This document shows positions 201 to 18,445 of a DNA stretch of 64,000 nucleotides, piece after piece. A program made the translations under genes and the position numbers. The stretch's first letter is position 1. Each line of letters starts with the position of its first letter. The notes beneath the pieces were generated by a model. The model did no database searches and was not told where the DNA came from. It was given only the letters and a program-made list of their open reading frames with translations. Source of the stretch: a virus; the IMG/VR virus record IMGVR_UViG_3300018059_000011, positions 20,544-84,543 of that record. One strand, given 5' to 3'.

Positions 201-213
201 AGGGGCATTGCTA

Positions 214-1705: not shown

Positions 1706-1718
1706 GGGTTCATGCGAT

Positions 1719-1740: not shown

Positions 1741-1780
1741 AAAGCAATCGACCTATTCTCTTACGAAGGGGTCCGCCCTC

Positions 1781-2803
1781 ATGCCTGCTTTCGTCATCCA
1801 ATTCCCCGATGAAAATTTCATGCCTGCACGCACGCTTGTCAATGGCGTCGAGGCTATGGTAGTTTTTGCCGCGACTTCCGCCGACGCAATCGCTTTCGCC
1901 AAGGCCCAGTCGGGCAACGATGTCGATTCGATGTGGGACAACGCCGATGTCACCGAAGTGGCGGCACCCGACGATCTCGCTGGTTTCACTTTGCGCGCAC
2001 AACTCTTCGCTCCTGACTCCGGCGGAACCCCGCTGGTCGATGAGAGCGCTTTCCCCGTAGTCGATGTCTCCATCCTTGTCGGCGACGCCGAATGGGAGAA
2101 GGCGGTCGGCACTCTCACGGGTGATACCGTCGCTACCCAAGTCGTATTGATTGGGACGACGTATTATCAGTTTGTGGACGACTCGACGCCTAATGCCGGA
2201 AATGGCACTGTCGGTACTCCCTATCTCGTCGATAATCTCGCGAGTGACACGGATGCTTTCGCCAATCTCGTAAAGGCGATCAATGCGACGGGTGTTGCCG
2301 GAACTACCTATTCCACTGGACTTGTCGCACACGCGACTGTTGAGGCGCTGACTTCCGATGCCACGACCCTGACCGTGCGGGCTCGTACTGGTGGTGCCGC
2401 TGGTGGTCTTATCGCGACAACGACCGGCGGTGATACCGACATCACTTGGGGCGCCACCACGCTTGAAGGCGGCCAGGACTTGTCCACCGTCGATTCGGTC
2501 GCTCTCGCGATGGCGGCTGCTCTGAATGCCACCGATGAGATCGCGGGTGCCTCCTACGACGATAGCGGTAATGTGCTGACTGTGGCCGAAACCACGGACA
2601 GCCTCGGCGATCACACGCTCGTCATCACGTTGACGCCGCCCGGCGCCCGCGATTCCGATGACGAAGACGGCGCCCCGTTGTCGCTTCCAGGCTTCTTCGG
2701 AGCGACAGTGGATGGCGGCTCCTCGGGAGATGCTGTCACCGTCGAATTTGGAGCCGATGACTACGATCTGCCAAAGTTCGTGGCCGGTTTCCAGCAGCTT
2801 TAA
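1781..2803 (+). CDS. Capsid-proximal structural protein carrying the inserted module
   Basis: A 340-aa protein of unknown exact role, starting at ATG 1781 (AAGGGG upstream). Its N-terminal 100 residues and C-terminal 105 residues match the next gene closely: MPAFVIQF versus MPAYLVQL, RTLVNGVEAMVVFAA versus RTLVDGVDTMVVFAA, and ALNATDEIAGASYDDSGNVL versus ALNATAPIAGAAYDSSGQVL. Between them, residues about 109-231 form an extra module (GTTYYQF...FANLVKAINATG...TLEGG) absent from the paralog and found in four other virion proteins. Its place after the capsid gene suggests a head decoration or capsid-surface protein, but no signature proves this. Confidence 0.7.
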   Translation: MPAFVIQFPDENFMPARTLVNGVEAMVVFAATSADAIAFAKAQSGNDVDSMWDNADVTEVAAPDDLAGFTLRAQLFAPDSGGTPLVDESAFPVVDVSILVGDAEWEKAVGTLTGDTVATQVVLIGTTYYQFVDDSTPNAGNGTVGTPYLVDNLASDTDAFANLVKAINATGVAGTTYSTGLVAHATVEALTSDATTLTVRARTGGAAGGLIATTTGGDTDITWGATTLEGGQDLSTVDSVALAMAAALNATDEIAGASYDDSGNVLTVAETTDSLGDHTLVITLTPPGARDSDDEDGAPLSLPGFFGATVDGGSSGDAVTVEFGADDYDLPKFVAGFQQL

Positions 2804-2818
2804 GAGAGGACTACTCTG

Positions 2819-3424
2819 ATGCCAGCCTATCTCGTTCAACTCCCAAGCGCCGAGGCTTCTCCAGGCCGCACGTTGGTCGATGGTGTGGACACGATGGTGG
2901 TCTTCGCCGCCGACGCCACTGATGCCAAGGCTGTTGCCAAGTCCCAGACCGATGGCGATCTCGAGGCGCTGTGGGATGCCGCCACGGTGACTGAGATTGT
3001 CGCCGGGGCCGACCTGATTGGATGGACGCTTCGCATCGCGATGTCCGACGCTGATGTCAATCCCGACACGGGCGTCAAGGACACGATCTTTGATCTTTCG
3101 GTGGTCGGCGCGGGCGCCAACAACACCATCGACGAGATCGCGGCCCTTATGGTCACCGCCCTGAACGCCACTGCCCCGATTGCTGGCGCGGCCTATGATT
3201 CCAGCGGCCAAGTCCTGAAGATCGCGGATGACTCCGACAATCTCGGTAAGAACACCGTCATCGTCGAGTGGTATCCGCCAAACGCGCAACAGAATGTTCC
3301 GGTCCCTGGTCTCGTGGTCTCGATTGCCGATGGCGCCGTGTCGGATGCTACCGATGTTACGGTCACGTTCGCCGCCGATGCTTTCGTGGTTCCGGCTTCT
3401 GCGGGGTCGTTCAAAGCCTCATAA
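2819..3424 (+). CDS. Capsid-proximal structural protein, short paralog without the module
   Basis: A 201-aa tandem paralog of the preceding gene, 15 nt after its stop and with GAGAGGA upstream of ATG 2819. It keeps both shared flanks but runs directly from FDLSVVGAGANNTIDEI into VTALNATAPIAG, without the approximately 120-residue insertion. The pair therefore documents a duplication followed by gain or loss of one domain. Role inferred only from position: a minor head or decoration protein. Confidence 0.72.
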   Translation: MPAYLVQLPSAEASPGRTLVDGVDTMVVFAADATDAKAVAKSQTDGDLEALWDAATVTEIVAGADLIGWTLRIAMSDADVNPDTGVKDTIFDLSVVGAGANNTIDEIAALMVTALNATAPIAGAAYDSSGQVLKIADDSDNLGKNTVIVEWYPPNAQQNVPVPGLVVSIADGAVSDATDVTVTFAADAFVVPASAGSFKAS

Positions 3425-3449
3425 GCCTTGCACATCGGGGAGGATGTAA

Positions 3450-4079
3450 ATGGCTGCCTACGTCAGAGTGACTTTTGTGCTTACCGGGCCTGATCGCGGT
3501 AAGACGAAGAAAGTCAAGCATTATTCATTCGTCAACGGCGAATGCACGGTGGATGTCCCACGCACGGGGCTTGCCCACGCGGCCAATTATCTGTCATACT
3601 TCGCTTCGTACCTCAAGGGATCGCCGGAGCATCTGGCGGACCTTGCGGCAAGTGAGGAAGCAGTCAATGGCGTACTCGGTAACGCTCCAGCGGGTGTTCA
3701 GGTCGGTGATGCTGACTTCGTACAAAGTCCTGAGCATCGACAGGCCGGGCCGGTTCCCGCCGCGCAAGATGTCAACGGCGGCGTCCCAGGAGATCGTGAG
3801 GAAGGGCGGGAGCGGGCTTCCGATTCCACCACAGGGCTTGGACCACAAGACTCCGGGCTGGCAGGGAAACACGCCGAACCTTCGGGGCTGAATGTAAGCC
3901 CGTTGTCTCGGGCGATCACGGCTCTCGATCCCGAAGTCGATACCAATTGGACAGAAGGCGGCTTGCCCGCCATTGCCGCGCTGGCCGCGTTCGACCCGTC
4001 GCTTACGCGCAGGGTCATCAATGAGGCGGCGCCGGGTTGGAATCGCGCCAAGGCGCGAGACGCCGCATCGCTTCTCTGA
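3450..4079 (+). CDS. Structural protein with C-terminal phage head motif
   Basis: A 209-aa protein. The N-terminal 60 residues form a small β-rich domain (VRVTFVLTGPDRGKTKKVKH). A low-complexity Gly/Pro/Glu linker follows. The C-terminal 40 residues carry a short motif recurrent in phage head-region proteins: D-x-x-x-x-x-x-W-T-x-x-G-x-P, then an S/T-R-x-I/V-x-E/D-A-x-P-G-x-x-R segment (WTEGGLPA...TRRVINEAAPGWNR). RBS GGGGAGG precedes ATG 3450. Exact function unknown. Confidence 0.6.
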   Translation: MAAYVRVTFVLTGPDRGKTKKVKHYSFVNGECTVDVPRTGLAHAANYLSYFASYLKGSPEHLADLAASEEAVNGVLGNAPAGVQVGDADFVQSPEHRQAGPVPAAQDVNGGVPGDREEGRERASDSTTGLGPQDSGLAGKHAEPSGLNVSPLSRAITALDPEVDTNWTEGGLPAIAALAAFDPSLTRRVINEAAPGWNRAKARDAASLL

Positions 4080-4086
4080 GCCGGGG

Positions 4087-4116
4087 TTGCGTACTCGACC
4101 CGGCATCGGATATACT
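4087..4116 (+). promoter_or_regulatory. Possible promoter
   Basis: TTGCGT (4087-4092), an 18-bp spacer and TATACT (4111-4116) precede the 4155 gene. The -10 is good and the -35 poor. A 6-bp GC stem (GCCGGG / CCCGGC, 4080-4104) overlaps it and could instead be a processing hairpin. Confidence 0.35.
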
Positions 4117-4154
4117 CATCGAGTGACATGAACCATCCAATGGAGTGAACGACT

Positions 4155-4475
4155 ATGACCCAGACCATTTTTCTTGTGACCCGTTCGGCTGCCATCGGCG
4201 GACCACTGGTCAACGGCGTGGTCGCCATTCTCATCAACCTGCTCGACAGTTCCACCGATGCCGAAGTCATCGCCGCCGCAATCGCGCAAGCGAATAGGCA
4301 GGCGGGTGATACCGGCGCGAAGCCGTTTCCAGTGGCCGATGACGACGACAATGTGTCCGGGCATTATTTCGACACCGTGACCGTGATCGCCATCGGGTCG
4401 GCTCCGCTTAATGCTTCCACCGACGCCATCGTCATCGGATCGTTTGACGGCGCCGTCGAGATCGAGCAGGTCTAA
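4155..4475 (+). CDS. Hypothetical head-region protein
   Basis: A 106-aa protein of unknown function with RBS-like GGAG 9 nt upstream of ATG 4155. It is acidic, with an Ala/Ile-rich helix around AEVIAAAIAQANRQAGD and a DDDD stretch followed by a β-rich tail. It lies between the capsid-proximal paralogs and the connector gene, so a minor head role is likely but unproven. Confidence 0.6.
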   Translation: MTQTIFLVTRSAAIGGPLVNGVVAILINLLDSSTDAEVIAAAIAQANRQAGDTGAKPFPVADDDDNVSGHYFDTVTVIAIGSAPLNASTDAIVIGSFDGAVEIEQV

Positions 4476-4551
4476 TCCCCGCTGTCGTAACCGGCAGCCC
4501 CCGGCGGTCCACTGTGGCCGCCGGGTATCTCTTTAGCCGGGAGATTCCGAC

Positions 4552-4704
4552 GTGGCCGCGAAGATGAAGTCCGAACGGCAGGTTCGTTTCCTGCTCAGCA
4601 AAGTCAGCCCCCTCACCAAGAATCAGAAGCACAAGCTGGTGACCGAGCTTCATAGCGGTGCGGTCAAGATCAAGCACACGCCGAGTAAGACACGAGGCAA
4701 GTAA
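4552..4704 (+). CDS. Small basic protein (50 aa)
   Basis: A 50-codon ORF with a GTG start at 4552, GGGAG 9 nt upstream and a TAA that directly abuts the next gene's ATG (4705). The product is strongly basic, with Lys/Arg clusters such as KNQKHKLVTELH. The tight stop-start junction and good RBS support translation. Function unknown; nucleic-acid contact is possible from charge alone. Confidence 0.6.
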   Translation: MAAKMKSERQVRFLLSKVSPLTKNQKHKLVTELHSGAVKIKHTPSKTRGK

Positions 4705-5688
4705 ATGCCGATCCTCCTGGTGGTAGAAGATGGCGGCGGGAATCCCGACGCAAACTCCTATGCTTCGCTCGATGACGTTTCCAGTTACCACGAGATGCGC
4801 GGTAATGACGGCTGGCTGAGCGCGTTTTCGACGGCCACCGGCTTGCTCCTCTCCGACGCGAATTACGCCGATGGCGAGATCGTGGTCATTGGCACCAAGA
4901 CCTATACCTTCCAGGACACGCTTACGGATGTGGACGGCCACATTCAGGTCGGGTTGACCGAAGCCGCGTCTATCGCCAATTTGGCGGCGGCCATTAACGG
5001 CAATACCGGGGTTCCCGGCACAGACTATGCGGCCTCCAATACCCCAAGCACTGAAGTAACTGCGGTCGCAGCCGCGCATAAGTTGACGGTGACGGCTGTC
5101 ATCGCGGGATCGGATGCCAACTCCATCGTTTCCACTACCACGGCTGCGAACGCTTCCTGGGCCTTCAACACGTTGACAGGCGGTAGCGAAGAAGTTGCTA
5201 AGGCGTGCATTATCAAAGCCACCGACTACATTGAGAAGCGCTTCAGTGGGCGATTCCGGGGCACCCGGCAGACTGTCAGCCAAGGTCTTTCGTGGCCGCG
5301 CTTCAGCGCCCAGGACGAAGATGGATGGCTGATCGGTGGGATTCCGCCTCGGCTCATCAAGGCCGTCTCCGAGTACGCGCTCCGCGCAAAAATTTACAAT
5401 GTGCTGGCGCCCGATCCCACGCGGACGGCGCCGTCCCAGGACATGAGCACGAATCCGCCGACGCAGAGTTCGGAGGAGGTCGCGGCCACGCGCTTGAACT
5501 ACAAGCGGCAGAAGGTCGGGCCGTTGGAGCAAGAGCTTCATTATTCGGCGCTCGACGAAACCATCAAGCAGAAGAGTGGCGGCTCCGCGCTGATCGCGAT
5601 CACGTCGCTTCAAGAGTACCCGGAGGCCGATCTCATCATTGAGCATCTCCTCCGCAATCGGGGCGTTCGTCTCGTAAGAGGAGACTGA
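4705..5688 (+). CDS. DnaT_2-type head-tail connector protein with inserted module
   Basis: A 327-aa protein of the family annotated as DnaT-like ssDNA-binding (DnaT_2), found in siphophages at the head-tail connector position. Family marks are the N-terminus VVEDG...PDANSYASLDDVSSYHEMRGN, then IIKATDYIEKRFSGRFRGTR, LSWPR, EYALRA and the KVGPLEQE strand. Usually the first segment runs straight into the second. Here residues about 47-160 are an inserted module (IVVIGTKTYTFQD...IANLAAAINGNTG...LTGGSEE) homologous to those in five other places. Likely a neck/adaptor subunit; the insertion would sit in a surface loop. Confidence 0.78.
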   Translation: MPILLVVEDGGGNPDANSYASLDDVSSYHEMRGNDGWLSAFSTATGLLLSDANYADGEIVVIGTKTYTFQDTLTDVDGHIQVGLTEAASIANLAAAINGNTGVPGTDYAASNTPSTEVTAVAAAHKLTVTAVIAGSDANSIVSTTTAANASWAFNTLTGGSEEVAKACIIKATDYIEKRFSGRFRGTRQTVSQGLSWPRFSAQDEDGWLIGGIPPRLIKAVSEYALRAKIYNVLAPDPTRTAPSQDMSTNPPTQSSEEVAATRLNYKRQKVGPLEQELHYSALDETIKQKSGGSALIAITSLQEYPEADLIIEHLLRNRGVRLVRGD

Positions 5689-5693
5689 GAGCG

Positions 5694-6242
5694 ATGGACC
5701 GGGTGTCTTGCCTTTACCGAATCACTTCTCCTTCCGGTAAGAGTTACATTGGAGTCACTCATCGTATTGCTCGTCGCTTGGTGGAGCATCGCTGCGCCAA
5801 ATCCCTTATTGGCAGCGCCCTTCGCAAATACGGGGATGAATGCAAAGTGGAAGTTCTGGTCGTTGGACCACCTGATTATATTCTGGGTTTGGAGCATTCG
5901 GCTATCGAAATTTTCGGGGCGCTTGCGCCAAACGGATACAATATCGCTATGGGTGGAATTGGGGGCGCGGGCTGTCCCTTGCATCCCGATCATAAGGCGA
6001 AGCTCTCGGAATCTCATAAGGGCGTACTTTTTACGTCAGAGCGTAAGGCCAATTTGTCTAGGGTGATGAATGCCCCGGAATATAAGACTCAGATGTCAGT
6101 TTTGAAAACCGGGAAAGCGCATTCTCCTGAAACTAAGGCCAAGATTGCGGCTTCGCGCATTGGCAAAATTCACTCACAACAGACCAAGGCCAAAATGTCG
6201 GTCTCTCAAGTTAACCGATTTTCGGCGGCGAGGGGTGACTAA
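5694..6242 (+). CDS. GIY-YIG homing endonuclease with NUMOD3 repeats
   Basis: A 182-aa protein. The GIY-YIG domain covers residues 1-90: LYRITSPSGKSYIGVT gives the split GIY/YIG strands, followed by the catalytic R (RRLVEH), the S/T-ALRKYG helix and a Glu in LEHSAIE. The C-terminal half has NUMOD3-type DNA-binding repeats (SPETKAKIAASRIGK, SQQTKAKMSVSQ). It fits exactly between two structural genes; its stop overlaps the next ATG. The last residues (NR...RGD stop) resemble the end of the preceding connector gene, a possible displaced remnant. Confidence 0.9.
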   Translation: MDRVSCLYRITSPSGKSYIGVTHRIARRLVEHRCAKSLIGSALRKYGDECKVEVLVVGPPDYILGLEHSAIEIFGALAPNGYNIAMGGIGGAGCPLHPDHKAKLSESHKGVLFTSERKANLSRVMNAPEYKTQMSVLKTGKAHSPETKAKIAASRIGKIHSQQTKAKMSVSQVNRFSAARGD

Positions 6243-6622
6243 TGTCGTCCTCATTTTACAGTCCGTTCGCTGGCTGGATCGCGGCGTTGATCGCCAAGAC
6301 TGGTCGCGAGGTCACGTTCGTGAAAACGTCGAGGACAGCAAGCGATAATGCGAAGCCTTGGCGCGCGGATAGCTCCAACGATGTGCGGGTAACGACAAAG
6401 GCCGTCATCATTCCGTTCGATGCCGAGGACGATCCGAGTTCGGTACGTCGTGGGAAGATGGTCTGCTATGTGAATGCGCCGCCATTCGATGCCGTGCTCC
6501 CCGCCAAGCCCGAGGACTTCAATACGATTGAGGACAACGGCGACATCTGGAACATTCGCAAGGTGATCGTCTACAATCCCGGTGACACTAGATTGCTGTA
6601 CGAACTCGATGTAGAAAAATGA
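6242..6622 (+). CDS. Putative head-closure / neck protein
   Basis: A 126-aa β-rich protein placed after the connector and before the tail terminator, the usual slot for a head-closure (stopper) protein. It contains a long basic N-terminal segment (AKTGREVTFVKTSR) and a C-terminal β-region (DIWNIRKVIVYNPGDTRLLYEL) like those of small neck proteins that act on the tail interface. No diagnostic motif. It is bracketed on both sides by GIY-YIG genes, with an ATGA overlap to the next. Confidence 0.55.
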   Translation: MSSSFYSPFAGWIAALIAKTGREVTFVKTSRTASDNAKPWRADSSNDVRVTTKAVIIPFDAEDDPSSVRRGKMVCYVNAPPFDAVLPAKPEDFNTIEDNGDIWNIRKVIVYNPGDTRLLYELDVEK

Positions 6623-7176
6623 TTTTTCATCGCAAACTGCCTGCGGGCGTGGCTCTGGTTTACCACATTGTTTCTCCCTCCGGTCGCGGGTATATCGGGG
6701 TTACGGGGCATTTGCGCCTGCGTCTTTGGCAGCATTTGAACTCCGAAACTTTCCTCGGTTCGTCTCTTCGTAAATACGGACTGGACGCCCACGAGATCAA
6801 GATTCTTGCGGTATTGCCAACAGAAGAAGCCTTCGCTCTTGAAGAACGCGCTGTCCTGGCCTTTGGTACTCTGGCGCCTCATGGTATGAATTTGTATCTC
6901 GGCGGACTCGGAGGCGCTCGCGCTTTGAAGGGGCGGGTGCTCCCCGAATCGGAGCGAGAGAAGCATCGTGGTTGGCGCCATGATGAAGGCACAAAAATGG
7001 TAATCGCTGAACGCGCTCGTGAACAGTGGGCTCCCTTTGCGAAGCCCAAGAAGAACGGTAAACCGAAGTCGCCGGAGCACCGGGCGAAGTTGGCGGCGCA
7101 TTTGGCGACGATGCGAAACGACCCTGCGAGGCTTGCTGGCCTTCGGGCGATTCATGCCATGAGGAGGGTCGCATAA
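6619..7176 (+). CDS. GIY-YIG homing endonuclease
   Basis: A 185-aa protein. Residues about 12-95 form the nuclease domain: LVYHIVSPSGRGYIGVTG, then RLRLWQH, SSLRKYG and a Glu-containing EEAFALEERAVLAFG. The C-terminus is basic with one NUMOD3-like repeat (SPEHRAKLAAHLA). It overlaps the preceding gene by ATGA, and its end supplies the GAGGAGG ribosome site of the next gene. It interrupts the head-closure to tail-terminator junction without disrupting either frame. Confidence 0.88.
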   Translation: MIFHRKLPAGVALVYHIVSPSGRGYIGVTGHLRLRLWQHLNSETFLGSSLRKYGLDAHEIKILAVLPTEEAFALEERAVLAFGTLAPHGMNLYLGGLGGARALKGRVLPESEREKHRGWRHDEGTKMVIAERAREQWAPFAKPKKNGKPKSPEHRAKLAAHLATMRNDPARLAGLRAIHAMRRVA

Positions 7177-7649
7177 TGCCGGTTCAAGACACAGGCGAGG
7201 CTCGCGACCTCATCATTGGCGTTGCCCAGGCAGCTATCAATACGCTGTCGCCGACGCCGAAGGTGCTGTACGCCGACAAGTCGGATGAAGTCCCGAAGGA
7301 CGGAGATACTTGGATTCGTGTCGCCGCCGTCCATTTTGCGGGCTATAAGGCGTCGCTCGGAAATGCTCAGGGCAAGTCTCGATTCCGCAATCGTGGCATC
7401 GTTCGCGTTGAGGTCCACACGCCGTTTGGCGACGGGTATACCCTGAGCGACCAAATCACAACCGTCATCAAGAACGCCTTCAGGAAACGCAGTTCGAGCG
7501 CCGATAAGGTCTCGTTCAGCAATGTTCTCTCCACGGAACAGCCCTATACCAGCAGGCCGGAATCCTCAGTTGTCGGGCCGGAAAAGGGCGATGGAAATTG
7601 GACCAGGGTGGACGTTACCGCAGAGTTCGATTACGCGGAAGTGGTATGA
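7176..7649 (+). CDS. Putative tail terminator / tail completion protein
   Basis: A 157-aa protein with the layout of siphophage tail terminators: N-terminal helix (GEARDLIIGVAQAAI), then WIRVAAVHF, a strand-rich core (GIVRVEVHTPFGDGYTLSD), a long helix ending in RKRSS, and a final strand VDVTAEFDY. It stands two genes before the tail tube once the endonucleases are ignored, as in lambda-like maps. Its last codons seem to be mirrored in a displaced copy downstream (8168-8245). The TGA overlaps ATG 7646. Confidence 0.65.
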   Translation: MPVQDTGEARDLIIGVAQAAINTLSPTPKVLYADKSDEVPKDGDTWIRVAAVHFAGYKASLGNAQGKSRFRNRGIVRVEVHTPFGDGYTLSDQITTVIKNAFRKRSSSADKVSFSNVLSTEQPYTSRPESSVVGPEKGDGNWTRVDVTAEFDYAEVV

Positions 7650-8248
7650 GTATCTGCCTTTATCTTCTCACCTTTGCGAATGGCAAACAGTATATTGGTG
7701 TGTCCAGTGAAATGGACCGTCGTCTCAAAGAGCACAGCTTTCGTGATACTTTGGTAGGAAGGGCCTGGAGAAAATATGGGGCTCCAGCGATCAAAATCTT
7801 GCTGATCGGTGAGGACGATTTCATCTACGAGATGGAAAGAAAAGCCGTTAGTTCTTACGGCACGCTTTTCCCCGATGGTCTCAATTTGATGGAAGGTGGC
7901 AAGGGCGGGCGTCGTATGTCTGGCGCCACAAGAACTAAGATGGCGGTTAGCCACATCGGGGCGATTATGCCGGTGGAAGTTCGGGCTAAAATCGGCGCCG
8001 CAAAGACTGGTCATAAACGCGAGCCATTCGGGCCGGATTGGTGTGCTAAATTGAGTGAGGCCGCGCGCAAAAGCTCTGGATTTTCTGGCCGCTCCCATAG
8101 CCCAGAAACTAGGGCCAAGATGGCGGCATCTCAATTGAGGCGCAAGGCGAGATCGTCTAAGCTAGGGTTGACAGTAGACCAGGAAGCCGAGTATCCTTAC
8201 AGGGAGAAAGCCGGGCTTCCAGGCCAAGGACAGGGACCGATACCATGA
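7646..8248 (+). CDS. GIY-YIG homing endonuclease fused to a displaced gene end
   Basis: A 200-aa protein from ATG 7646, which overlaps the previous TGA. The GIY-YIG domain is at residues 3-85 (LYLLTFANGKQYIGVSS, RRLKEH, RAWRKYG, EMERKAVSSYG), followed by NUMOD3-like repeats (SGATRTKMAVSHIG, SPETRAKMAASQLRRK). The last 26 residues are atypical: LTVDQEAEYPYRE aligns with the tail terminator's own end, RVDVTAEFDYAE, then a Gly/Pro tail reaches the ATGA overlap with the tube gene. This tail is probably not part of the nuclease but the original 3' end of the invaded gene. Confidence 0.85.
   Translation: MSICLYLLTFANGKQYIGVSSEMDRRLKEHSFRDTLVGRAWRKYGAPAIKILLIGEDDFIYEMERKAVSSYGTLFPDGLNLMEGGKGGRRMSGATRTKMAVSHIGAIMPVEVRAKIGAAKTGHKREPFGPDWCAKLSEAARKSSGFSGRSHSPETRAKMAASQLRRKARSSKLGLTVDQEAEYPYREKAGLPGQGQGPIP
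8168..8245 (+). pseudogene. Candidate displaced 3' end of the tail terminator gene
   Basis: In the same frame as the GIY-YIG gene, codons 8174-8206 encode VDQEAEYPYRE. The intact tail terminator ends VDVTAEFDYAE: 6 of 11 identical with one F/Y change, while the codons differ. The fragment then continues open to the ATGA shared with the tail tube start, where the original gene would have ended. Short, so moderate confidence; the same layout is seen much more clearly at the DNA polymerase gene. Confidence 0.45.
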
Positions 8249-10611
8249 CTGCATTGACGAAGATCGACTCCAACGGCACGGGCCTTCGGTTCTGCGAGGA
8301 AGTCTCGCTCGGTGTGCTTTCGGCAACCGCCTCTCAAGTCTGGTATCCGGCTGAGCCCAACACCTACGACAATTTCGGCGGCCAGTTCAAGAAGGTCGCT
8401 CGGCGCCCCATCAATGCGTCGCGCCAGAATCGCAAGGGCGTGACCGTCGATCTCGACGCGGCTGGTGGCTACAACACCGATCTCACGCAGACCAATCTCA
8501 TCCGGTTGCTTCAGGGCTTCTTGTTCGCGGACGCCCGCGAGCCCTACGACAGCCAGTCGATCAACAATCAGGGCAGCGCCCTTACCGCCGTTGAAGATAG
8601 CGACGACACCTATCGTTTCTCCTACGGCAATGATCTCGACCGCGTGCTGGGGCAGAGCCTCGTGTTCGCCACCGATCTGGCAACGACCGCGAACAACGGT
8701 TTGAACGTAGTCAACTCGGTGACTCGCGCGCTCGCCGCCGGTACGCTGACGCTGACGCCCGGCGCAATCGTCGATGACGTTGTGGTTATCGACGGCGTGT
8801 ACTATCAGTTTGACGCCACGGTCACTGCGGGCTCTGGCACCGGCTTCGACCCCTACGTTGTGGACATCGGCGCGAACGACACCGAAGCCTTTGCCAATCT
8901 CGTGAAGGCGATCAATGCGACCGGCACACCCGGCACGGAGTATAGCTCCGCGCTTGTGAGCGCGCATCCGACTGTCGAAGCCATTTCCAGCAATGCGACC
9001 ACGATGGTCGTGAACGCCCGTAGCTACGGATACGCGGGCAACAGCATCGAGACCAGCGGCACCGGCAATGACGGCCTCGCTTGGGGCGGCACCACGCTCT
9101 CCGGCGGCACCGCGATGATCGACGTTGACGCGAGCCTCACCGACGAGACTGTCGATGACGACCACGCGGGAGGCACCCTGACCTTCACCGCTGGCGCAAT
9201 CGCCGATGACATCGTTGAAATCGACGGCGTGTTTTATCAGTTCGCGGCGGACCCCACCACGGGCACGCCGGATGGCTCCGAAGGCGATCCGTTCCTCGTC
9301 GATGTCGGCGGCACCGATACGATCTCGCTCGCCAATCTTCGCAAGGCGATCAACGCCACGGGCATCGCCGGAACGACCTATGCGGCGGAAGTCGTTGTCC
9401 ATCCGACTGTGACTGCGGTTTCGTCCGGTGCGACCACGTTGGTTGTGCGCGCGAAGGCTGCGGGTACGGACGGCAATGCAATCACGACTTCAGTCACGCT
9501 CTCCAGCACCGATGACGGCCTCGCTTGGGGCAGCACCAAGCTCTCCGGCGGCAACAACACTTCGGCCCGTGTCCGCGTGGTCGGTTATCAGTTCGCATCC
9601 TCCACCGTCGATGTGGTCGTGTCTTTCACGCATCCGAGAATCTCCCGCGCTTCCGGCGCTGTCGATTTCACTACGTTCGGTCTGGTCCCAGGCCAATTCC
9701 TCTGGGTTGGCGGCGATGTCTCTGGCAAGAAGTGGGTCAACGAGAACATGAATGGCTGGGCTCGCGTTCGCGAGGTCGGCGCCGCCTACATCGAGTTCGA
9801 CAAGACCTCGGCGGATTGGGCCGCTGAAACCGGCACCAGCTTGACGGTTCAAATCTTCTTCGGCGTGGTCCTCAAGAACGAGTCCGATCCTACGCTCATC
9901 AAGCGCCGGTCCTATCACCTGGAGCGCTCTTTGGGCTCGCCGGATGACGCCGACCTGACCGCGATCCAGAGCGAGTTGCTCACGGGCTCGGTTCCGAACC
10001 AGATGACCCTGGACTTCAAGACCGCCGACAAAGTGACGGTGGACTTGTCGTTCCTTTCGACCGATGACGTGCAGCGCACGGCCACGGAGGGCTTGCTCTC
10101 CCAGGCTGCGGTTCACGGCGGCGGCGCCGCTCCGGGCATCGTCAACGAAGACGCCTACAATACGTCGAACGACTTTTCGCGGCTGAAGATGGTCATCCTC
10201 GACCCGTTGGATTCCAGCCCGTCTCCGCTGTTCGCGTTCTTGCAGGATTTCAAGATCACGATCAACAACAACCTGAAGGCCAACAAGGCGATCTCTGTCC
10301 TTGGCGCCTTCGAGGTCACCGCCGGTCAGTTCGTTGTGACCGGGACGACCACGGCGTACTTCGCCGACATTGCTGCAATCGCCGCCGTTCGCAACAACAG
10401 CGACGTGAGCATCGACTTTGCGCTTTCTCGTGACAACGTGGGCTTCGCGGTCGATGTGCCGCTGATCTCGCTGGGCGACGGACGCGCTGACGTGAAGCAG
10501 GACGAAGCCATCATGCTGCCGTTGTCCATCGACGCGGCTGCCGACCGGCTTTTCGACTATACGATCCTGTTCGAGTTCTTCCCTTACCTGCCGGACGTTG
10601 CCGCCGAGTAA
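8245..10611 (+). CDS. Major tail tube protein with two inserted modules
   Basis: A 788-aa protein of the Phage_tube_2-type tail tube family, whose members are usually about 300-400 aa. The N-terminus has LRFCEEVSLGVL, YDNFGGQF, VARRPINASRQNRKGVTVDLDAAGG and NTDLTQTNLIRLLQGFLFAD. The tube fold resumes after residue about 440 (FASSTVDVVV, FVWGGD-like LWVGGD, RRSYHLERSL) and ends FDYTILFEFFPYL. Residues about 164-287 and 308-435 are two tandem copies of the module found in other virion proteins (VVIDGVYYQF...NLVKAINATG...TTLSGG and VEIDGVFYQF...NLRKAINATG...TKLSGG). They probably project from the tube as surface decorations. Confidence 0.82.
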   Translation: MTALTKIDSNGTGLRFCEEVSLGVLSATASQVWYPAEPNTYDNFGGQFKKVARRPINASRQNRKGVTVDLDAAGGYNTDLTQTNLIRLLQGFLFADAREPYDSQSINNQGSALTAVEDSDDTYRFSYGNDLDRVLGQSLVFATDLATTANNGLNVVNSVTRALAAGTLTLTPGAIVDDVVVIDGVYYQFDATVTAGSGTGFDPYVVDIGANDTEAFANLVKAINATGTPGTEYSSALVSAHPTVEAISSNATTMVVNARSYGYAGNSIETSGTGNDGLAWGGTTLSGGTAMIDVDASLTDETVDDDHAGGTLTFTAGAIADDIVEIDGVFYQFAADPTTGTPDGSEGDPFLVDVGGTDTISLANLRKAINATGIAGTTYAAEVVVHPTVTAVSSGATTLVVRAKAAGTDGNAITTSVTLSSTDDGLAWGSTKLSGGNNTSARVRVVGYQFASSTVDVVVSFTHPRISRASGAVDFTTFGLVPGQFLWVGGDVSGKKWVNENMNGWARVREVGAAYIEFDKTSADWAAETGTSLTVQIFFGVVLKNESDPTLIKRRSYHLERSLGSPDDADLTAIQSELLTGSVPNQMTLDFKTADKVTVDLSFLSTDDVQRTATEGLLSQAAVHGGGAAPGIVNEDAYNTSNDFSRLKMVILDPLDSSPSPLFAFLQDFKITINNNLKANKAISVLGAFEVTAGQFVVTGTTTAYFADIAAIAAVRNNSDVSIDFALSRDNVGFAVDVPLISLGDGRADVKQDEAIMLPLSIDAAADRLFDYTILFEFFPYLPDVAAE

Positions 10612-10653
10612 GGGCTGAGTTTAACCTGAGTATCCCTGGGGAGGGGTCATAAA

Positions 10654-11289
10654 GTGGGTCGTAGACCACCGTATATGAGGGTGGCCCTTTCGCCAGCGGT
10701 AAAAGCCGCGCAGGAGATTGTTGATAAAGACCCTGTGAATCGGGCGCTTGTTTATCGTGTGACTTCGCCATCGGGGAAATCCTACATCGGCGTCACTAGT
10801 AACCTCAATCATAGACTGAGGCGGCACGCTAAAAATAGATCGCATATCGGGAACTCGATTCGCGCATACGGCATCAAGAATCACGTAACAGAAGTGTTGG
10901 CGGTCCTTCCAAAAGAAGAAGCTTTTGCGCTTGAACAAAGAGCAATTGAAGCCTTTGGGACGTTGGCGCCAAATGGCATGAATCTGGTCTCTGGTGGTTT
11001 GGGAATGCAAAATCCAAGTGCAGAGACTCGGACCAAGCTTTCAGATGCTGGCAGAAATATTTCTCCCGAGACAAGAGCTAAAATGGTGGCCGCCCAAATG
11101 GGGCGTATACATTCTGAAGAATCAAGAGCCGCGAGGAGAGGTCAGAGACGCTCCGCAGAAACTAGGGCTAAAATGTCTACATCGCACAAAGGCAAAACTC
11201 ATTCCATTGAATCTAAGGCTAAAATATCGAGGGCAGTCCACGCTAGATATGCCCGGCCCACCCTTGTAGGGGCCATTCATTTGGCGTAG
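10654..11289 (+). CDS. GIY-YIG homing endonuclease with four NUMOD3-type repeats
   Basis: A 211-aa protein with a GTG start at 10654 and GAGGGGT upstream. A basic N-terminal extension precedes the nuclease domain (residues about 32-110: LVYRVTSPSGKSYIGVTS, HRLRRH, NSIRAYG, EQRAIEAFG). Repeats then follow at SAETRTKLSDAGRN, SPETRAKMVAAQMGR, SAETRAKMSTSHKGK and SIESKAKISRAV. Its codons are visibly AT-richer than the surrounding tail genes. It separates the tail tube gene from the tail chaperone genes; no displaced end of the tube gene was found here. Confidence 0.9.
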   Translation: MGRRPPYMRVALSPAVKAAQEIVDKDPVNRALVYRVTSPSGKSYIGVTSNLNHRLRRHAKNRSHIGNSIRAYGIKNHVTEVLAVLPKEEAFALEQRAIEAFGTLAPNGMNLVSGGLGMQNPSAETRTKLSDAGRNISPETRAKMVAAQMGRIHSEESRAARRGQRRSAETRAKMSTSHKGKTHSIESKAKISRAVHARYARPTLVGAIHLA

Positions 11290-11320
11290 AATCAAATATA
11301 ACTTGGAGGAGAGTCCTATC

Positions 11321-12159: not shown

Positions 12160-12625
12160 AATGGCGAAGTCCGCTGGTGAGATTGTCGCTGTCGCGGCCA
12201 GGGCCATAGGCGAGGACGTGGCGACCGAGACCCCAGTCGATACCGGGGTAGCCCGCTCCAATTGGATAATGTCCATAGACGCGCCGACCGGCGAAGTCAT
12301 ACCGGCCTACGTTCCGTATCCGCGCACCCATCAGCAGCATCGCATCGGTGAGTACAAGCATCAGGCCGCGACCGGCCAGGAGTACGGCTTTGGCCGGAAA
12401 GAGGAACGGGCGAATCTCGCCGCCGTGCTCGCGCAGCATGAAGCCGCCGTGGCCTCGTTCGATCCCGAGCGCAACAATGCGATCTATCTCTGCAATAATG
12501 TCGATTACATTCGTCGTTTGAACAACGAGGGATACTCCCCACAGACCGAAGCGTTCTTCGTTCAGCGTGCCGTGCAAAAGGGCATCACGAAGATTCGCTC
12601 GATGAAACTTTTGAAGGCGGCATAA
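12104..12625 (+). CDS. HK97 gp10-like tail/neck protein
   Basis: A 173-aa protein with GTG start 12104 and AGGAAAG upstream, overlapping the chaperone fusion frame. Its N-terminal third has the arrangement typical of HK97 gp10-like minor tail/neck proteins: a long helix (RADEMAKSAGEIVAVAARA) followed by TPVDTGVARSNW, the well-known VDTG-x-A-R-x-N-W signature. Later segments include AIYLCNNVDYIRRLNNEGYS and a terminal helix. Placement after the chaperones, not before the tube, is less common. Likely a tail completion component. Confidence 0.65.
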   Translation: MGTQPFTLFAKVITKRADEMAKSAGEIVAVAARAIGEDVATETPVDTGVARSNWIMSIDAPTGEVIPAYVPYPRTHQQHRIGEYKHQAATGQEYGFGRKEERANLAAVLAQHEAAVASFDPERNNAIYLCNNVDYIRRLNNEGYSPQTEAFFVQRAVQKGITKIRSMKLLKAA

Positions 12626-12626
12626 C

Positions 12627-15600
12627 ATGGCCTCAGAAGCATTCATCATTGTCGTCCAGCAGAAAGGCGTCAAAGAAGCCAAAGCCGAAATGGACGGCTT
12701 GGCTGAGGCCGGTGGCAAGGCTGCGAAATCGACTACGGGTCTCGGCACCGCTGCATCCAGTTCCGAGAAGCACATCAGTGCGATCCGTGGGTCTCTGGCC
12801 CTCATGCGTAACGCCCTTGTGGCGTTGTCGTTCGTGCGGATCATCACTGGCGTGACCGATCTCGTAGATTCGTTCATCAACATGGAGTCGAAGCTCAATC
12901 TCGTCACCAAGTCTACGACCGACACCGGCATCGCCATGCAGGCGTTGCTTCAGGTCGCCAACGAGACTCGAGCTCCGTTGGATTCCACGGTGACGTTGTT
13001 CACCCGACTTGCCCGAGCTACAGCCGGATTGAAGCTCACCAATGGCGAGTTGCTGGACATCACTCGGTCGTTGAACCAAGCATTCGTTATCTCCGGTGCG
13101 ACCGCCGATGAAACGCGCAATGCCATCACCCAGTTGACGCAGGGCTTGTCGCTTGGCATTTTGCGCGGCCAGGACTTGCGGTCGGTGACCGAGTACGGTT
13201 CCCGTGTCGCGAAGATTTTCACCGATGAAATCAATAGGCAGGGCCTCGCCCGCGACCGCAACAACAAGTTGCTGCCGGGCGAGTTGTATTCTTGGACGCA
13301 AATTCATAAGAACGTCCTGACCACGAAGATCGCGGTTGAAGCCTTTAGGCACGCCCAGGAGCCTCTCGCCGCCGAGTTCACCCAGACCTCCAAGACCATT
13401 GGTCAGGGGTGGACCCAGCTTACGAACGTGTTCACGATCTTCTTCGGCAATCTCGCCACGAATAGCGGAGTTGTCGCCGGGATCACTGGTGCCCTGGACT
13501 TCTTGGCGAAGAACATCGGAGCCGTCACCATCGCAGTGTTGGGCTTTGCCGCTGCCTGGGCGTCGTTGCTCATCATCCGTACTTTCATCGGTCTCGCCGG
13601 TCAGATCGTATCCGCGTTTCTCGGCATCTGGCGCGCTCTTGGATTGGTGACTGCCGGTTTTCGTATTCTCGCGGTCACTGTCGGGACCATGACCGGCGCC
13701 GGATTGATTGTCGCTGGTATCGCCGCCGCCATCTTCCTCGTGGTCAAAGTTCTCCAAGCTTTCGGTGTCACCTGGGATGACGTTTGGGAGGCTGCGAAGT
13801 CCACGGTAGCTGGCATCATCGCTGCGATCCAAGTTCTTGGCGACATCTTCTACAACATCTTCACCGGAATGGCCCTCGTCGCTGTCCGCGCGTTCAATCT
13901 CGTGTCGGAGAAGTTTACTGCGTTCTTGAACTTTTTCCGCACGGAACAGAAGAAGCCGTTCCTGCTCGTCGAGCCCGAAGGCCCAAAGAACTTCGGCAGC
14001 GTCAGCGAGGACTTCGCGCGCCACTTCGCCGATAGCAAGAAGGCCGTGGACGAGACCATCAAGTTCATCAACAATGCGGTCAAGAGCGGCATCACCGATG
14101 ACGCGATTGCCGAGTGGAAGAAGAAGCTGAACGGCCTTGCCACCGATGCCGGGGACGCTGGAGACGAGATCAGCAAGAAGGTCGCCGGTCTCGTGAACCA
14201 GATCGAGTCGTTCATAGCCAGGGTCAGCCCGCTGTTCGACGTGACCTCGAAGATGGACAAGTTCAAGAAACTTGTTGCCGATCTCACCGCCGAGAAGGGC
14301 GGTGCCGCTGCGTTGAAAAAGGTCTTTGACTTCTCGGTGGCGGCTGGTGGCCCCGGTAGCATCGAAGAAGTATTTCGTCGTGTCCGACGTGAAGAGATTG
14401 GCGTCGGTAACGCCAGCACCGATCTTTCGGAGCGCTTGAAGCTCCTGAAGGGATATGTGGATGATGGCACAATCTCCTGGGAAGAATATAGCTTCGGAGT
14501 GAATGAGGTCAACATCAAGGCGCTCAAGGCCCAGCATGACATCGCCAGCGGCGTGGCCCTGGCCGGATTCGAGCAACAGCAGAAGATGATGAATGAGGCG
14601 TCCATTGCCGCGAAGGCGCTCGGAGCCGCCTACGAAGACATCAATGCGATTCACGATTACACCATTGCCCAGCAAGTCCTCAGTGATGAACTGAAGAAGC
14701 ATCCGGGGGAATACGACGCCATCACTCGGGCGATGCGCGAGAATGAACTCGCTATGCTCTCGAAGAAGACCGATTTTGGTAGTGGCATCCGCCGCGCCGA
14801 GATCGAGGCCGAGAAGCGTGCGCTCGACGACGCCACGATTGCTCAGGGCGCCTACACCGATGCGCTGAAGCAAGTGGACGCGCAACATACGTTCGTTGTC
14901 ACCCAGCGGACTTTGAACGACATGCTCGCGCAGGGCAAGATCGGTTGGGACCAGTACACCGAGTCGATGCGGGCCGCTGAGAACACGATGCTCCAATTCG
15001 ACAAGACCGCCGAGTCTGGTTTCCGTCAGGGTATCCTCCAGATCAAGGACGAACTCACCGATGCCGCATCCACGGCCAAGACCGCGTTTGTTGATGCGTT
15101 CCACGACATGCAGGATGCGCTCGTGGACTTCCTCGACACCGGTCATTTCAGCTTGCAGAAGTTTGCGGGCGATCTCACGCACAATTTGAACAAGCTCGCG
15201 GTCCAGCAGGTCTTCGGCCCTGCCATCGGCCAGCTTCTTGGCATCGGCGCCCCCAATACGCCGGGCTCCAGCGCGGGCGGCGGCCTTTTCGGGCTGCTCG
15301 GTCCACTCTTCGGCGCCACGGGCCTGGGCGGGCCTGGGGCTGCCCCCAAGGGCACCTTGACCGATCCCCTGCATGTGATCCTCGCTGGCGGTGCTGGTGG
15401 CCTGGGGGGCTTGGCATCCCTGCTTCCAAGTGGGGGCGGGAACCCCGGTTCGGCGATCTTCCAGAACGGTAATTGGATTCCCGGCGCCGAGGGATTCCCC
15501 GAGAAGATCGGCGAGGCGATCACGACTTCTGGAACTAACCTGACCGGCGGTATCGAGCAATCCTTGACCGGCGCCACCGGGGGCGGTGGCTTCCTCAGCA

Positions 15601-16013
15601 GCCTCGGTAATCTGTTTTCGCAGGGCGTGTCCGGCATCGGCAACTTGCTCGGTAGCATCGGCAGCGGGATCGGCGGCCTCTTCGGAGGCGGTGGGGGAGG
15701 CGGCGGTATCGGCAGTTTCCTTGGCGGTGCCCTCAGCCTCATTGGGTTGGCCGGTGGTGGCGACTTCGATGTTGGGGGTGCTGGAGCCACTGACAGCCAG
15801 ATCGTGGCATTCCGTGCGTCTCCAGATGAGCATGTCTCGGTCACGACTCCTGGTCAGCAGGCGCGTGAAAATAAGGCTCAAACGAATACGCCAATCCAGT
15901 TCACGATGCACGTTCACGGGGTTTCGGATGCCAATAGCTTTGCCCGTGCCGAAGATCAGATTTATGCGTCGGCAATGCAGCGCCTCAGTCGCGCTTCGCG
16001 TCGCAACAACTAA
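12627..16013 (+). CDS. Tail tape measure protein
   Basis: A 1128-aa protein, the longest in the tail block before the tip, directly after the chaperones. The N-terminal tape-measure domain (about residues 60-260) shows FINMESKLNLVTKST, QVANETRAPLDSTVTLFTRL and LTQGLSLGILRGQDLRSV, the conserved region of lambda-like tape measures. Hydrophobic segments at about 290-390 (AVTIAVLGFAAAWASLLII, AGLIVAGIAAAIFLVVKVL) could form membrane-active helices during ejection. A long helical part follows, and the C-terminal 250 residues are Gly-rich with the lambda-type FAGDLTHNLNKLAVQQVFGP segment. It sets tail length and exits first on infection. Confidence 0.92.
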   Translation: MASEAFIIVVQQKGVKEAKAEMDGLAEAGGKAAKSTTGLGTAASSSEKHISAIRGSLALMRNALVALSFVRIITGVTDLVDSFINMESKLNLVTKSTTDTGIAMQALLQVANETRAPLDSTVTLFTRLARATAGLKLTNGELLDITRSLNQAFVISGATADETRNAITQLTQGLSLGILRGQDLRSVTEYGSRVAKIFTDEINRQGLARDRNNKLLPGELYSWTQIHKNVLTTKIAVEAFRHAQEPLAAEFTQTSKTIGQGWTQLTNVFTIFFGNLATNSGVVAGITGALDFLAKNIGAVTIAVLGFAAAWASLLIIRTFIGLAGQIVSAFLGIWRALGLVTAGFRILAVTVGTMTGAGLIVAGIAAAIFLVVKVLQAFGVTWDDVWEAAKSTVAGIIAAIQVLGDIFYNIFTGMALVAVRAFNLVSEKFTAFLNFFRTEQKKPFLLVEPEGPKNFGSVSEDFARHFADSKKAVDETIKFINNAVKSGITDDAIAEWKKKLNGLATDAGDAGDEISKKVAGLVNQIESFIARVSPLFDVTSKMDKFKKLVADLTAEKGGAAALKKVFDFSVAAGGPGSIEEVFRRVRREEIGVGNASTDLSERLKLLKGYVDDGTISWEEYSFGVNEVNIKALKAQHDIASGVALAGFEQQQKMMNEASIAAKALGAAYEDINAIHDYTIAQQVLSDELKKHPGEYDAITRAMRENELAMLSKKTDFGSGIRRAEIEAEKRALDDATIAQGAYTDALKQVDAQHTFVVTQRTLNDMLAQGKIGWDQYTESMRAAENTMLQFDKTAESGFRQGILQIKDELTDAASTAKTAFVDAFHDMQDALVDFLDTGHFSLQKFAGDLTHNLNKLAVQQVFGPAIGQLLGIGAPNTPGSSAGGGLFGLLGPLFGATGLGGPGAAPKGTLTDPLHVILAGGAGGLGGLASLLPSGGGNPGSAIFQNGNWIPGAEGFPEKIGEAITTSGTNLTGGIEQSLTGATGGGGFLSSLGNLFSQGVSGIGNLLGSIGSGIGGLFGGGGGGGGIGSFLGGALSLIGLAGGGDFDVGGAGATDSQIVAFRASPDEHVSVTTPGQQARENKAQTNTPIQFTMHVHGVSDANSFARAEDQIYASAMQRLSRASRRNN

Positions 16014-16024
16014 CGGAGAGCCGC

Positions 16025-16999
16025 ATGACTTCGTTTCATAACGTGAGGTTGCCGGAAGAGATCGAGTCTGGTGCCCAAGGCGGACCCGGCTTTAAGACCA
16101 CGGTGCTGACGCTCTCGTCCGGCTTCGAGAAGCGGAATATAGAATGGTCGCGTTCGCGTGGCTCGTGGGACATCAGCTACGGCATTCAGACCAAAGATGA
16201 TGTCGGCAGCGTCATAGATTTCTTCTATGCCCGGCGGGGCAAAGCCTATGGCTTCCGGTTTAAGGACTGGACGGATTTCGAGATCACCAATCAGACCATT
16301 GGCACGGGTGATGGCGTTGCCGTTGTCTATCAGGTCTTCAAGAATTACCAAGATGATGGGGGGTCGTTTCAGCGCAAGATCACGAGGATCGTGGACGGCA
16401 CCCTGAGCGTCTACGTGAATGCGATTTTGAAGTCCGATCCCGGTGACTACACCGTTGACATCGACACCGGCCTCATCACGTTTGGGACCGCGCCCGGAGC
16501 CGTTGCCACGAGTGTGCTCACGTCATCCTCCAATTACTCTGTCGGAGAGACCGTTGTCATCGGCGGCAAGACCTACACTTTTGAGTCTCCTGTAACCAAT
16601 GTTGACGGCCATGTCTTGCGCGGCGGTAGCGAGGCAGCGTCGATGGCGAACCTGCATTATGCTATCAACAAGAGCGGCGGAACCATCGGCACAGACTATG
16701 CTCTTGCGACCACTGCCAATGCGTTTGTCACGGCGACCGACAACGGAGTTCATGCGCTCACGGTCACAGCTATCACCGGGGGTGCCGCAGGCAATGCCAT
16801 CACTACCGCCGAGACCTGTGCCCTTGCGGCATGGGGTCCGAACACCGCGTATCTGACCGGCGGTGCCGACGCCGATGTCACCGTGACTTGTGAGTTTGAT
16901 GTTCCAGTTCGTTTCGACACTGACAAGTTGCCGCTGAAGGCGACCTGGGAAGATGCTATCGAAGTCCCCCAGATTCCAATCGTAGAGATCAAGGAATAA
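16025..16999 (+). CDS. Distal tail protein, DUF2460 / GTA g12-like, with inserted module
   Basis: A 324-aa protein of the DUF2460 (TIGR02217) family; family members are about 200 aa. The N-terminal half shows FHNVRLPEEIESGAQGGPGF, RNIEWSRSRGSWDISYG, FFYARRGKAYGFRFKDWTD and KITRIVDGTLSVYVN. The C-terminal end is VRFDTDKLPLKATWEDAIEVPQIPIVEI. Between them, residues about 162-280 are the shared module (TVVIGGKTYTFES...NLHYAINKSGG...LTGGAD). It caps the tube and starts the baseplate hub in gene-transfer-agent-like tails. GGAGAG precedes ATG 16025. Confidence 0.88.
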   Translation: MTSFHNVRLPEEIESGAQGGPGFKTTVLTLSSGFEKRNIEWSRSRGSWDISYGIQTKDDVGSVIDFFYARRGKAYGFRFKDWTDFEITNQTIGTGDGVAVVYQVFKNYQDDGGSFQRKITRIVDGTLSVYVNAILKSDPGDYTVDIDTGLITFGTAPGAVATSVLTSSSNYSVGETVVIGGKTYTFESPVTNVDGHVLRGGSEAASMANLHYAINKSGGTIGTDYALATTANAFVTATDNGVHALTVTAITGGAAGNAITTAETCALAAWGPNTAYLTGGADADVTVTCEFDVPVRFDTDKLPLKATWEDAIEVPQIPIVEIKE

Positions 17000-17002
17000 C
17001 CA

Positions 17003-18445
17003 GTGAAGACGATCTCAAGCGGATTGGACACGCATCTCACCGAAGAGGTCACGACGTTGGCCCGGTGCTGGAAGATCACGCGCCAAGACGGCGTTCAGTT
17101 CTTCTTCACCACCCATGACGCGAACCTGACTTTCGAGGGAGATGAGTACATCTCCATGAATGGATTCAATACGACGGCGATTACCAGCAGTGCGGCTCTT
17201 GACGTGGACAATCTCAACGTGGCCGGATTCTTCGAGGAGGAGACGATCACTTCCGAGGACTTGGCTGCTGGGTTGTTTGACTACGCCGATGTCCGCCTCT
17301 TTTTGGTTAACTGGTCTGACATCAGCCAGGGTGCCCTTAAGCTCCGGCGCGGTTGGTTCGGTGAAGTTATTCACACCCCGAGTGGGATGTTCAAGGTCGA
17401 ACTTCGCGGCATGACTCAGGCGCTCGCGCAGCATATCGGCGAATTGTATGGCCCCGAATGCCGCGCCGATCTCGGTGACACACGCTGCAAAGTTCCGATT
17501 GATCCTGATCTCATTCAGCGGCTCACCGCTTACGAAGTCGGCGACTACGTGAAGGTCGTCACGGACAGCGGGGCCTTCGGCTACGCGCAGTACGAGAACC
17601 GCGTCTATAAGTGCATTTCCGCAGGCATCACCGCCGATGCCCAGCCGGTTTATGACACCGGGGTGGGCAACACCACGGATGACGGTGGCGCTGCTGGTGG
17701 TGGGACTGTGGCTGTCTACACGGCTCCGGTCTCGAACTATACGCTTGGTCTTTTCATACGCATTGACGATTTCCAATATACCTTTGTGACGACGCTGACC
17801 TCTTCCTCTCCTGGTAATGTCCTCATTGGAACGACGGTCTCTGACTCGCTCGATAATCTTTTCAATGCGATCACCGGAGGCCCCGGAGCCGGAACCACGT
17901 ACAATGTCGATACGCCTGTGAACACGACTGTGACCGCGACTGAAGGCGCCGGCACTATCACCGTTGAACTCGCCGACTTCTCGATCCCCGGCCAGAACGT
18001 ATTGCTCTCGGCTTCCATCCTCAGTGGGACATGGGACGTGGCTTCGCTCTCCACGTCATCGAATGCCTGCGTATTCCAGGCAGTGGAGGCATGGTCTCGA
18101 AATTTCACGGTGACCGGCGTTACCGATCATGACACCTTTGCGATCTCGGTTGACGAGTCTCGTGCGGTCGATGGTTGGTTCGACGGCGGCGTTCTTGTTT
18201 TCGATGAAGGCCCGAACCATGATAAAGGCTTTGAGGTCAAGACCTGGACAAATTCCGGCGGGGCCGTGAACTTGTACCTTCCGGTTGGTTTTGATATAAC
18301 TATAGGTGAGCGTGGTCGCATCTATCCTGGGTGCGACAAGAGTTTGGCGACTTGCCGTGATAAATTCAACAATCTTTTGAACATGCGCGCCGAGCCGTAC
18401 CTGCCAGGAAACGATGCTGCCTTCACATACCCGGATTCGCACTAA
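17003..18445 (+). CDS. Tail hub protein, DUF2163 / GTA g13-like, with inserted module
   Basis: A 480-aa protein (GTG 17003) of the DUF2163/BR0599 family, usually about 300 aa. Family marks are LDTHLTEEVTTLARCWKI, FFFTTHDANLTFEGDEY, DLAAGLFDYADVRLFLVNW and ELYGPECRADLGDTRCKV, then near the end GCDKSLATCRDKFNNLLN and EPYLPG. The paired Cys motifs recall the metal/Fe-S sites reported in hub proteins such as lambda gpL. Residues about 244-350 are the most degenerate copy of the shared module (RIDDFQYTFVTT...NLFNAITGGPGAGTTY). Confidence 0.87.
   Translation: MKTISSGLDTHLTEEVTTLARCWKITRQDGVQFFFTTHDANLTFEGDEYISMNGFNTTAITSSAALDVDNLNVAGFFEEETITSEDLAAGLFDYADVRLFLVNWSDISQGALKLRRGWFGEVIHTPSGMFKVELRGMTQALAQHIGELYGPECRADLGDTRCKVPIDPDLIQRLTAYEVGDYVKVVTDSGAFGYAQYENRVYKCISAGITADAQPVYDTGVGNTTDDGGAAGGGTVAVYTAPVSNYTLGLFIRIDDFQYTFVTTLTSSSPGNVLIGTTVSDSLDNLFNAITGGPGAGTTYNVDTPVNTTVTATEGAGTITVELADFSIPGQNVLLSASILSGTWDVASLSTSSNACVFQAVEAWSRNFTVTGVTDHDTFAISVDESRAVDGWFDGGVLVFDEGPNHDKGFEVKTWTNSGGAVNLYLPVGFDITIGERGRIYPGCDKSLATCRDKFNNLLNMRAEPYLPGNDAAFTYPDSH

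Follow-up and report, generated by a model that had tools for sequence, protein, structure and literature searches.

A small accessory domain occurs six times in predicted surface turns of five unrelated virion proteins of an uncultured tailed bacterial virus

Can six similar segments, set into five unrelated virion proteins of one uncultured tailed bacterial virus, be copies of a single domain, and if so, how did they come to be there? The stretch of DNA analysed (the window) is 64,000 nt long and spans positions 20544-84543 of a virus record in IMG/VR with a length of 84.5 kb; among its genes, those for virion proteins are similar to their counterparts in Yuavirus and in phages of alphaproteobacteria whose tail tip is RcGTA-like. 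The first-pass annotation had described the six inserted segments as one module, and at the level of sequence this is confirmed: six copies of one small domain, M1 to M6, each around 110-125 residues long, appear to occupy surface turns of the five proteins (Table 1). The same annotation had proposed a profile built from the copies as a check. Profiles made from five copies at a time were searched against the six-frame translation of the window, and each recovered the copy left out, with i-E values between 1.9e-9 (M6) and 6.3e-31 (M3); the best non-module match of these profiles in the window had an i-E of 0.12 or worse. A thousand shuffles per copy never exceeded 14 bits, whereas the real copies scored 34-103 bits, and when the complete 84.5-kb record was searched with an alignment of 36 copies, exactly these six were found and no seventh. 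Given the leave-one-out values, the low scores of the shuffles and the uniqueness of the copies in the record, the similarity is real and far beyond chance. Pairwise protein identity among the six is 28-57%. The borders could be refined, and the motif as first written, with a helix N-L-x-x-A-I-N-A/G-x-x-G and a closing W-x-x-x-x-L-x-G-G, holds for five copies but not for the hub copy M6, an outlier with NLFNAITG and WDVASLSTS at these places.

Table 1. Module copies, host genes and neighbouring features of the window
Feature	Position	Strand	Evidence and remarks
M1	2102-2476	+	leave-one-out i-E 2.4e-23
M2	4837-5184	+	leave-one-out i-E 5.8e-20
M3	8737-9108	+	leave-one-out i-E 6.3e-31
M4	9169-9555	+	leave-one-out i-E 1.2e-30
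M5	16508-16864	+	leave-one-out i-E 1.1e-22; copy modelled by AlphaFold2
M6	17711-18058	+	leave-one-out i-E 1.9e-9; most divergent copy
Endonuclease VII-type gene, just upstream of the major capsid gene	208-540		PF02945, E 1e-15
Major capsid gene, adjoining host 1	734-1705		phrog_212
Host 1, head-proximal virion protein (with M1)	1712-2803	+	phrog_15312, E 8e-21, two stretches
Tandem paralog of host 1 without module (natural empty site)	2819-3424	+	phrog_15312, E 4.4e-37, one stretch; alignment lacks the insert
Host 2, head-tail adaptor Ad1 (with M2)	4705-5688	+	phrog_477, E 4e-30, and PF20557, E 7e-28, two stretches each
GIY-YIG-like gene	5694-6242		
GIY-YIG-like gene	6619-7176		no GIY-YIG/NUMOD3 Pfam match
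GIY-YIG-like gene	7598-8248		
Host 3, major tail tube protein (with M3 and M4)	8245-10611	+	phrog_290, E 1e-57, and PF18906, E 1e-19, two stretches each
Tube host segment retained between M3 and M4	9109-9168	+	counterpart of TDVSVAETLTAEASPP in module-free tubes, by eye
GIY-YIG-like gene	10654-11289		
Protein taken as tape measure	12627-16013		1128 residues
Host 4, distal tail protein DUF2460, RcGTA g12 type (with M5)	16025-16999	+	PF09343, E 5e-61, two stretches; 6tba_6B, E 3e-40
Host 5, baseplate hub, RcGTA g13 type (with M6)	17003-18445	+	PF09931, E 4e-57; PF09356, E 2e-22; 6tba_7A, E 8e-46
Tail protein with collagen-like stretches	22938-24824		

All five host assignments made earlier proved right: a head-proximal protein of phrog_15312, the adaptor Ad1 (phrog_477), the tube (PF18906/phrog_290), a DUF2460 distal tail protein and the hub (PF09931/phrog_778). 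In hosts 1-4, the Pfam and PHROGs family match is split into two stretches with the module in between, while in the hub the phrog_778 match is a single stretch spanning the long M6 insertion. The retention of a host segment between M3 and M4 indicates that these two copies sit in neighbouring turns of the tube, flanking a conserved part of the host, and not at one tandem site; the segment was matched to its counterpart by eye from the alignment, the aligner itself not having placed it so.

That the host families are known without the module, as had been stated, was borne out for all five, each insert lying in a protein that exists elsewhere without it. The second phrog_15312 gene of the window lacks M1, as does gp57 of phage YuA, and three other contigs (relatives are given here by L numbers where needed) repeat this pair of one gene with a module and one without. 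M2 is absent from the Ad1 proteins of YuA and others, and the tube proteins of YuA (gp66) and seven or more orthologs have a short stretch at the place where the window, like L015, has two modules. RcGTA and R4C have distal tail proteins with an empty M5 site, chain residues 165/169 and 164/167 respectively lying on either side of it, and 14 IMG/VR orthologs are all free of the module; ten of these were matched in both host parts with few residues between, the other four being divergent, with the C-terminal part unmatched. At the M6 site of the hub, L080, L081 and L084 have a module and L082, L085 and L086 are empty, with a direct join across the site in L082 (residues 244/246) and L086 (239/238). 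The hubs of Erythrobacter and Mesorhizobium have other sequence in this region, annotated as F5/8 type C in the former; filled with such unlike sequences in relatives, it looks like a general insertion slot.

Within a single host type, the position of the module also differs. In the cultured Rhodobacter phage RcTitan, divergent copies lie in a head protein (phrog_10405) and, in the tube protein, near the N terminus; a tube-family protein of L105 has its module at yet another, third place, and the Ad1-like protein of L014 has one at an apparently shifted place. Modules at differing sites of the same host form a pattern of repeated independent insertion. The relatives with other sequence in the M6 region of the hub are L067, L068, L078, L079 and L083, one of them annotated as F5/8 type C.

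A common fold for the six segments had also been anticipated. AlphaFold2, run on M5 with the 36 copies as alignment, gave a confident model (pLDDT 92, pTM 0.87), a predicted beta sandwich flanked by one helix (residues 41-53) that has strands on either side and carries the module's most conserved motif. The anticipated fold thus stands for M5, and extends to the other five copies by homology, not by separate confident models; the full-length host-1 protein was predicted poorly (pLDDT 56), so that this model shows no module docked in its host. In VIA, 78-88 residues of the M5 model align to sheath domains at 2.1-2.5 Å with Z scores of 8.0-9.9, moderate for a small domain: 9.9 for the A-1(L) sheath (rmsd 2.5, 88 residues aligned) and 8.0-8.6 for that of PhiTE, with 8.8 for a P-SCSP1u portal-tail chain and 7.3 for Mu. 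Domains D2-D3 of flagellin (4nx9, Z 6.0) and D3 of FliD (5fhy, 5.2) have a similar fold, in different proteins and organisms. In the PDB, Foldseek gave a meaningful probability (0.92-0.93) to a single entry, the A-1(L) sheath-tube structure, with an E value of 0.18 at best. Nine viral models in BFVD matched at E < 1e-3; the best was phiJL001 Gp68 (E 6e-8, TM 0.88), and some of the nine carry the label major capsid or major tail protein. A profile search of PDB sequences with the module found no relation. Weak sequence matches link an L106 protein (E 1.3e-4, phrog_165 positions 95-225) and another module member (E 0.0045) to the sheath family phrog_165, the former at the same place as the structural match, and Pfam Flagellin_IN matched single proteins at E values of 0.016-0.09, below every family cut-off. 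The predicted fold of the module is that of FliD D3 and of the lateral domains of contractile sheaths.

This fold and part of its spread are already known, as three reports agree: the sheath insertion domain of XM1 has been likened to FliD D3, with an origin from bacterial-host FliD or flagellin proposed (PMC10457771), in the auxiliary capsid protein of crAss001 the FD domain has been likened to FliD and FliC (PMC10172136), and a 2025 paper describes one lateral-domain fold shared by sheath, nozzle and auxiliary capsid proteins and by FliD and flagellin (PMC12846349). The lateral and insertion domains of sheaths (Mu gp39, A-1(L), PhiTE, Milano, and InD of XM1) and of podovirus nozzles match the module in predicted fold and length and, like it, are accessory domains inserted in a virion protein. 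However, the hosts of the window copies are of siphovirus type (tube, adaptor, distal tail protein, hub, head protein), and the copies, six in this one record, form a separate sequence family with no Pfam, PHROGs or NCBIfam model of its own and no family in PDB sequences. The crAss001 domain, comparable by its description, is on the capsid and in one protein; the entry is not in the VIA list, an absence that is uninformative.

Ig-like domains of phages (Big_2, I-set, FN3), for which weak glycan binding has been proposed, are likewise shuffled horizontally among many virion proteins. The parallel drawn with them in the first-pass annotation, of a domain that hops with a different motif, agrees with the unrelated hosts of the module, which fall into at least ten families, and with the lack of any Pfam match to an Ig family (Big_2, I-set, FN3 or other) in the hosts and the 36 copies; the module differs from Ig-like domains in its motif, in having a helix that carries the most conserved part of it, and in being internally inserted in the window. 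In RcGTA and R4C, the same host proteins (adaptor, distal tail protein and hub) carry variable accessory domains (PMC7296036, PMC10276861), but these are Ig-like, OB-like or otherwise unlike each other, whereas in the window one family fills several slots. The module is well supported as a shuffled accessory domain; its fold and kind are known, while its sequence family, host proteins and load per particle are new with respect to the databases searched. To the few domains known to travel among virion proteins of phages it adds a non-Ig family recognisable by sequence. It also brings to siphovirus-type tubes, adaptors, distal tail proteins and hubs, and to a major-head-protein relative, a fold described mainly in contractile sheaths, nozzles and auxiliary capsid proteins.

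Scans of viral contigs with module queries added further loci (10, 20 and 24, in partly overlapping sets), with hosts in at least ten virion protein families. Besides the tube, these include the head-closure protein Hc3 (phrog_578), gp12-like proteins (phrog_376), sheath (phrog_23), major head protein (phrog_267), virion structural proteins (phrog_3287 and phrog_3645), LamG proteins and the RcTitan head protein. Where a host matches a family with an annotated role, it is in each case a virion protein and never an enzyme; many further hosts have no family match, and a profile of the module would help to explain oversized 'hypothetical' virion proteins. One 46-kb contig has seven matches in three proteins and other records have five, some of these matches being partial pieces of one domain, so six copies per record is high, but not unique; as the completeness of IMG/VR records is unstated, copy counts are lower bounds. 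Searching 50,697 phage records with single copies by tblastn gave nothing or weak partial matches, for which low-complexity filtering and divergence may be responsible; RcTitan holds divergent copies, so the lack of tblastn matches says nothing about absence. A first scan of genome contigs found no loci, and a second found one, a MAG protein matching the major head protein. This phrog_267-matching protein, on contig L096, labelled Ignavibacteriales, has the module near its C terminus, and viral contig L120 has one at the same residues in a frame of similar size.

We favour, with a probability of about 0.7, the reading that the module is a horizontally shuffled, outward-facing accessory domain in tolerant surface turns, which probably provides weak multivalent adhesion or particle stability. 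The shuffling is supported by the homologous copies, the module-free relatives of the hosts, the several module lineages described below, and the other hosts and sites used in relatives. Through illegitimate or homologous recombination, a self-contained domain of the FliD-D3/sheath-lateral fold would have entered turns at which it leaves the host protein able to fold, in this and many other uncultured phages; no mobile element of its own would be needed, and turnover could proceed through recombination between copies.

The copies would face outward along head, neck, tail tube, distal tail and hub. For the tube, two 12-kDa domains on each of six subunits per ring amount to ~144 kDa, or roughly 170,000 cubic angstroms. 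A tube lumen is 40 angstroms wide, which over a rise near 40 angstroms encloses ~50,000 cubic angstroms; modules of this volume cannot fit the lumen. A tape measure spans 0.15 nm per residue and a tube ring 4 nm, so that the 1128-residue protein taken as tape measure would correspond to ~250 tube subunits and ~500 modules per tail. For the adaptor, distal tail protein and hub, outward display is suggested by homologous slots: in R4C and RcGTA the adaptor carries an accessory domain, the distal tail protein an insertion domain that points outward, and the hub an oligosaccharide-binding domain starting at residue 162/168 (PMC10276861, PMC7296036), where the hub insert of the window also begins.

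By analogy with the glycan-binding slots of these systems and with Ig-like domains, the most likely role of the modules is weak, multivalent binding to glycans of the host surface, perhaps together with contacts to neighbouring subunits. The module matched no binding-site family; weak multivalent contact, with glycans or with neighbours, would most simply describe its function. A bolder extension, which we consider rather unlikely, is a virion-wide adhesive or protective coat, with the same weak binder on head, neck and tip and in hundreds along the non-contractile tube; were this so, the whole particle, and not only the receptor-binding fibre, would meet the cell surface or the environment.

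It is possible, if doubtful, that the modules are mainly structural, cementing neighbouring subunits or thickening head, neck and tail without contacting the host cell. There are precedents, in that the FD domains of crAss001 surround hexamers and pentamers, in contact with the major capsid protein (PMC10172136), extra sheath domains have been proposed to stabilise the tail or aid adsorption (PMC9230969), and the Ig-like domain of the R4C adaptor, near the head, was judged to serve local stability (PMC10276861). However, the sites vary among relatives of the same host, with three arrangements in the tube (window and L015, RcTitan, L105) and two in Ad1 (window, L014), most relatives are evidently without a module, and at the tip, with three or six copies, hardly any strength would be gained. 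Varying sites and module-free relatives fit a dispensable add-on better than specific interfaces, and the clean orthologs with and without it offer settings for testing the role of the module.

Decidedly improbable is a neutral or selfish passenger, tolerated in virion genes and helped in its spread by nearby homing endonucleases and endonuclease VII. There are indeed three GIY-YIG/NUMOD3 genes, and a similar one without a Pfam match, next to the genes for adaptor and tube, and the window also has the endonuclease VII gene; in addition, the last 42 nt of M3 and M4 are 95% identical in domains only 57% identical as proteins, which suggests a recent conversion between these copies. Yet a search of the module borders for conserved DNA ends or target repeats found none, the longest exact repeat being 6-8 bases or shorter, and no host with a described family and annotated role is anything but a virion protein. 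Core motifs are kept across very divergent copies, which argues for selection on the fold. The GC content of the modules resembles that of the host genes.

The history of the copies was examined with a maximum-likelihood tree of 40 modules, which does not follow the host protein. The window copies fall into three groups: M1, M3 and M4 with relatives (node support 99/97), M2 and M5 with L005-L007 (96/82), and M6 with L080 and others, among them modules from the hubs and from other proteins of further phages. Neither for the head protein (p 0.0035) nor for Ad1 (p 0.013) do the modules of one host type form a single clade; M2 and M5 as a clade gave p 0.137. With a single clade of all six rejected (lnL 254 worse, p-AU 6e-13), these groups indicate at least three module lineages in the window, with copying possible within the first two. 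One acquisition followed by five duplications within the phage lineage is thus very improbable, as the first two groupings leave room for some intragenomic copying but M6 joins modules of other phages; a single acquisition with later duplication is refuted for all six copies, and may apply within M1, M3 and M4 or within M2 and M5.

Several further features of the window were observed. A helix motif ALNAT..IAGAAY, resembling the module helix, is found in the C-terminal half of the host-1 protein (residues 258-363) and in its paralog; this half is in register with the module, but the match is too weak (hhalign P 0.0068, probability 5.6%) for a diverged copy to be claimed. The four GIY-YIG-like genes are related, free-standing homing endonuclease genes lying among those for adaptor, head closure, terminator and tube; GIY-YIG/NUMOD3 matches were obtained for all except the gene at 6619, and three of the four have 31-nt repeats in common within their NUMOD3-like parts. 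Further downstream, one tail protein has short collagen-like Gly-x-x stretches between two similar domains.
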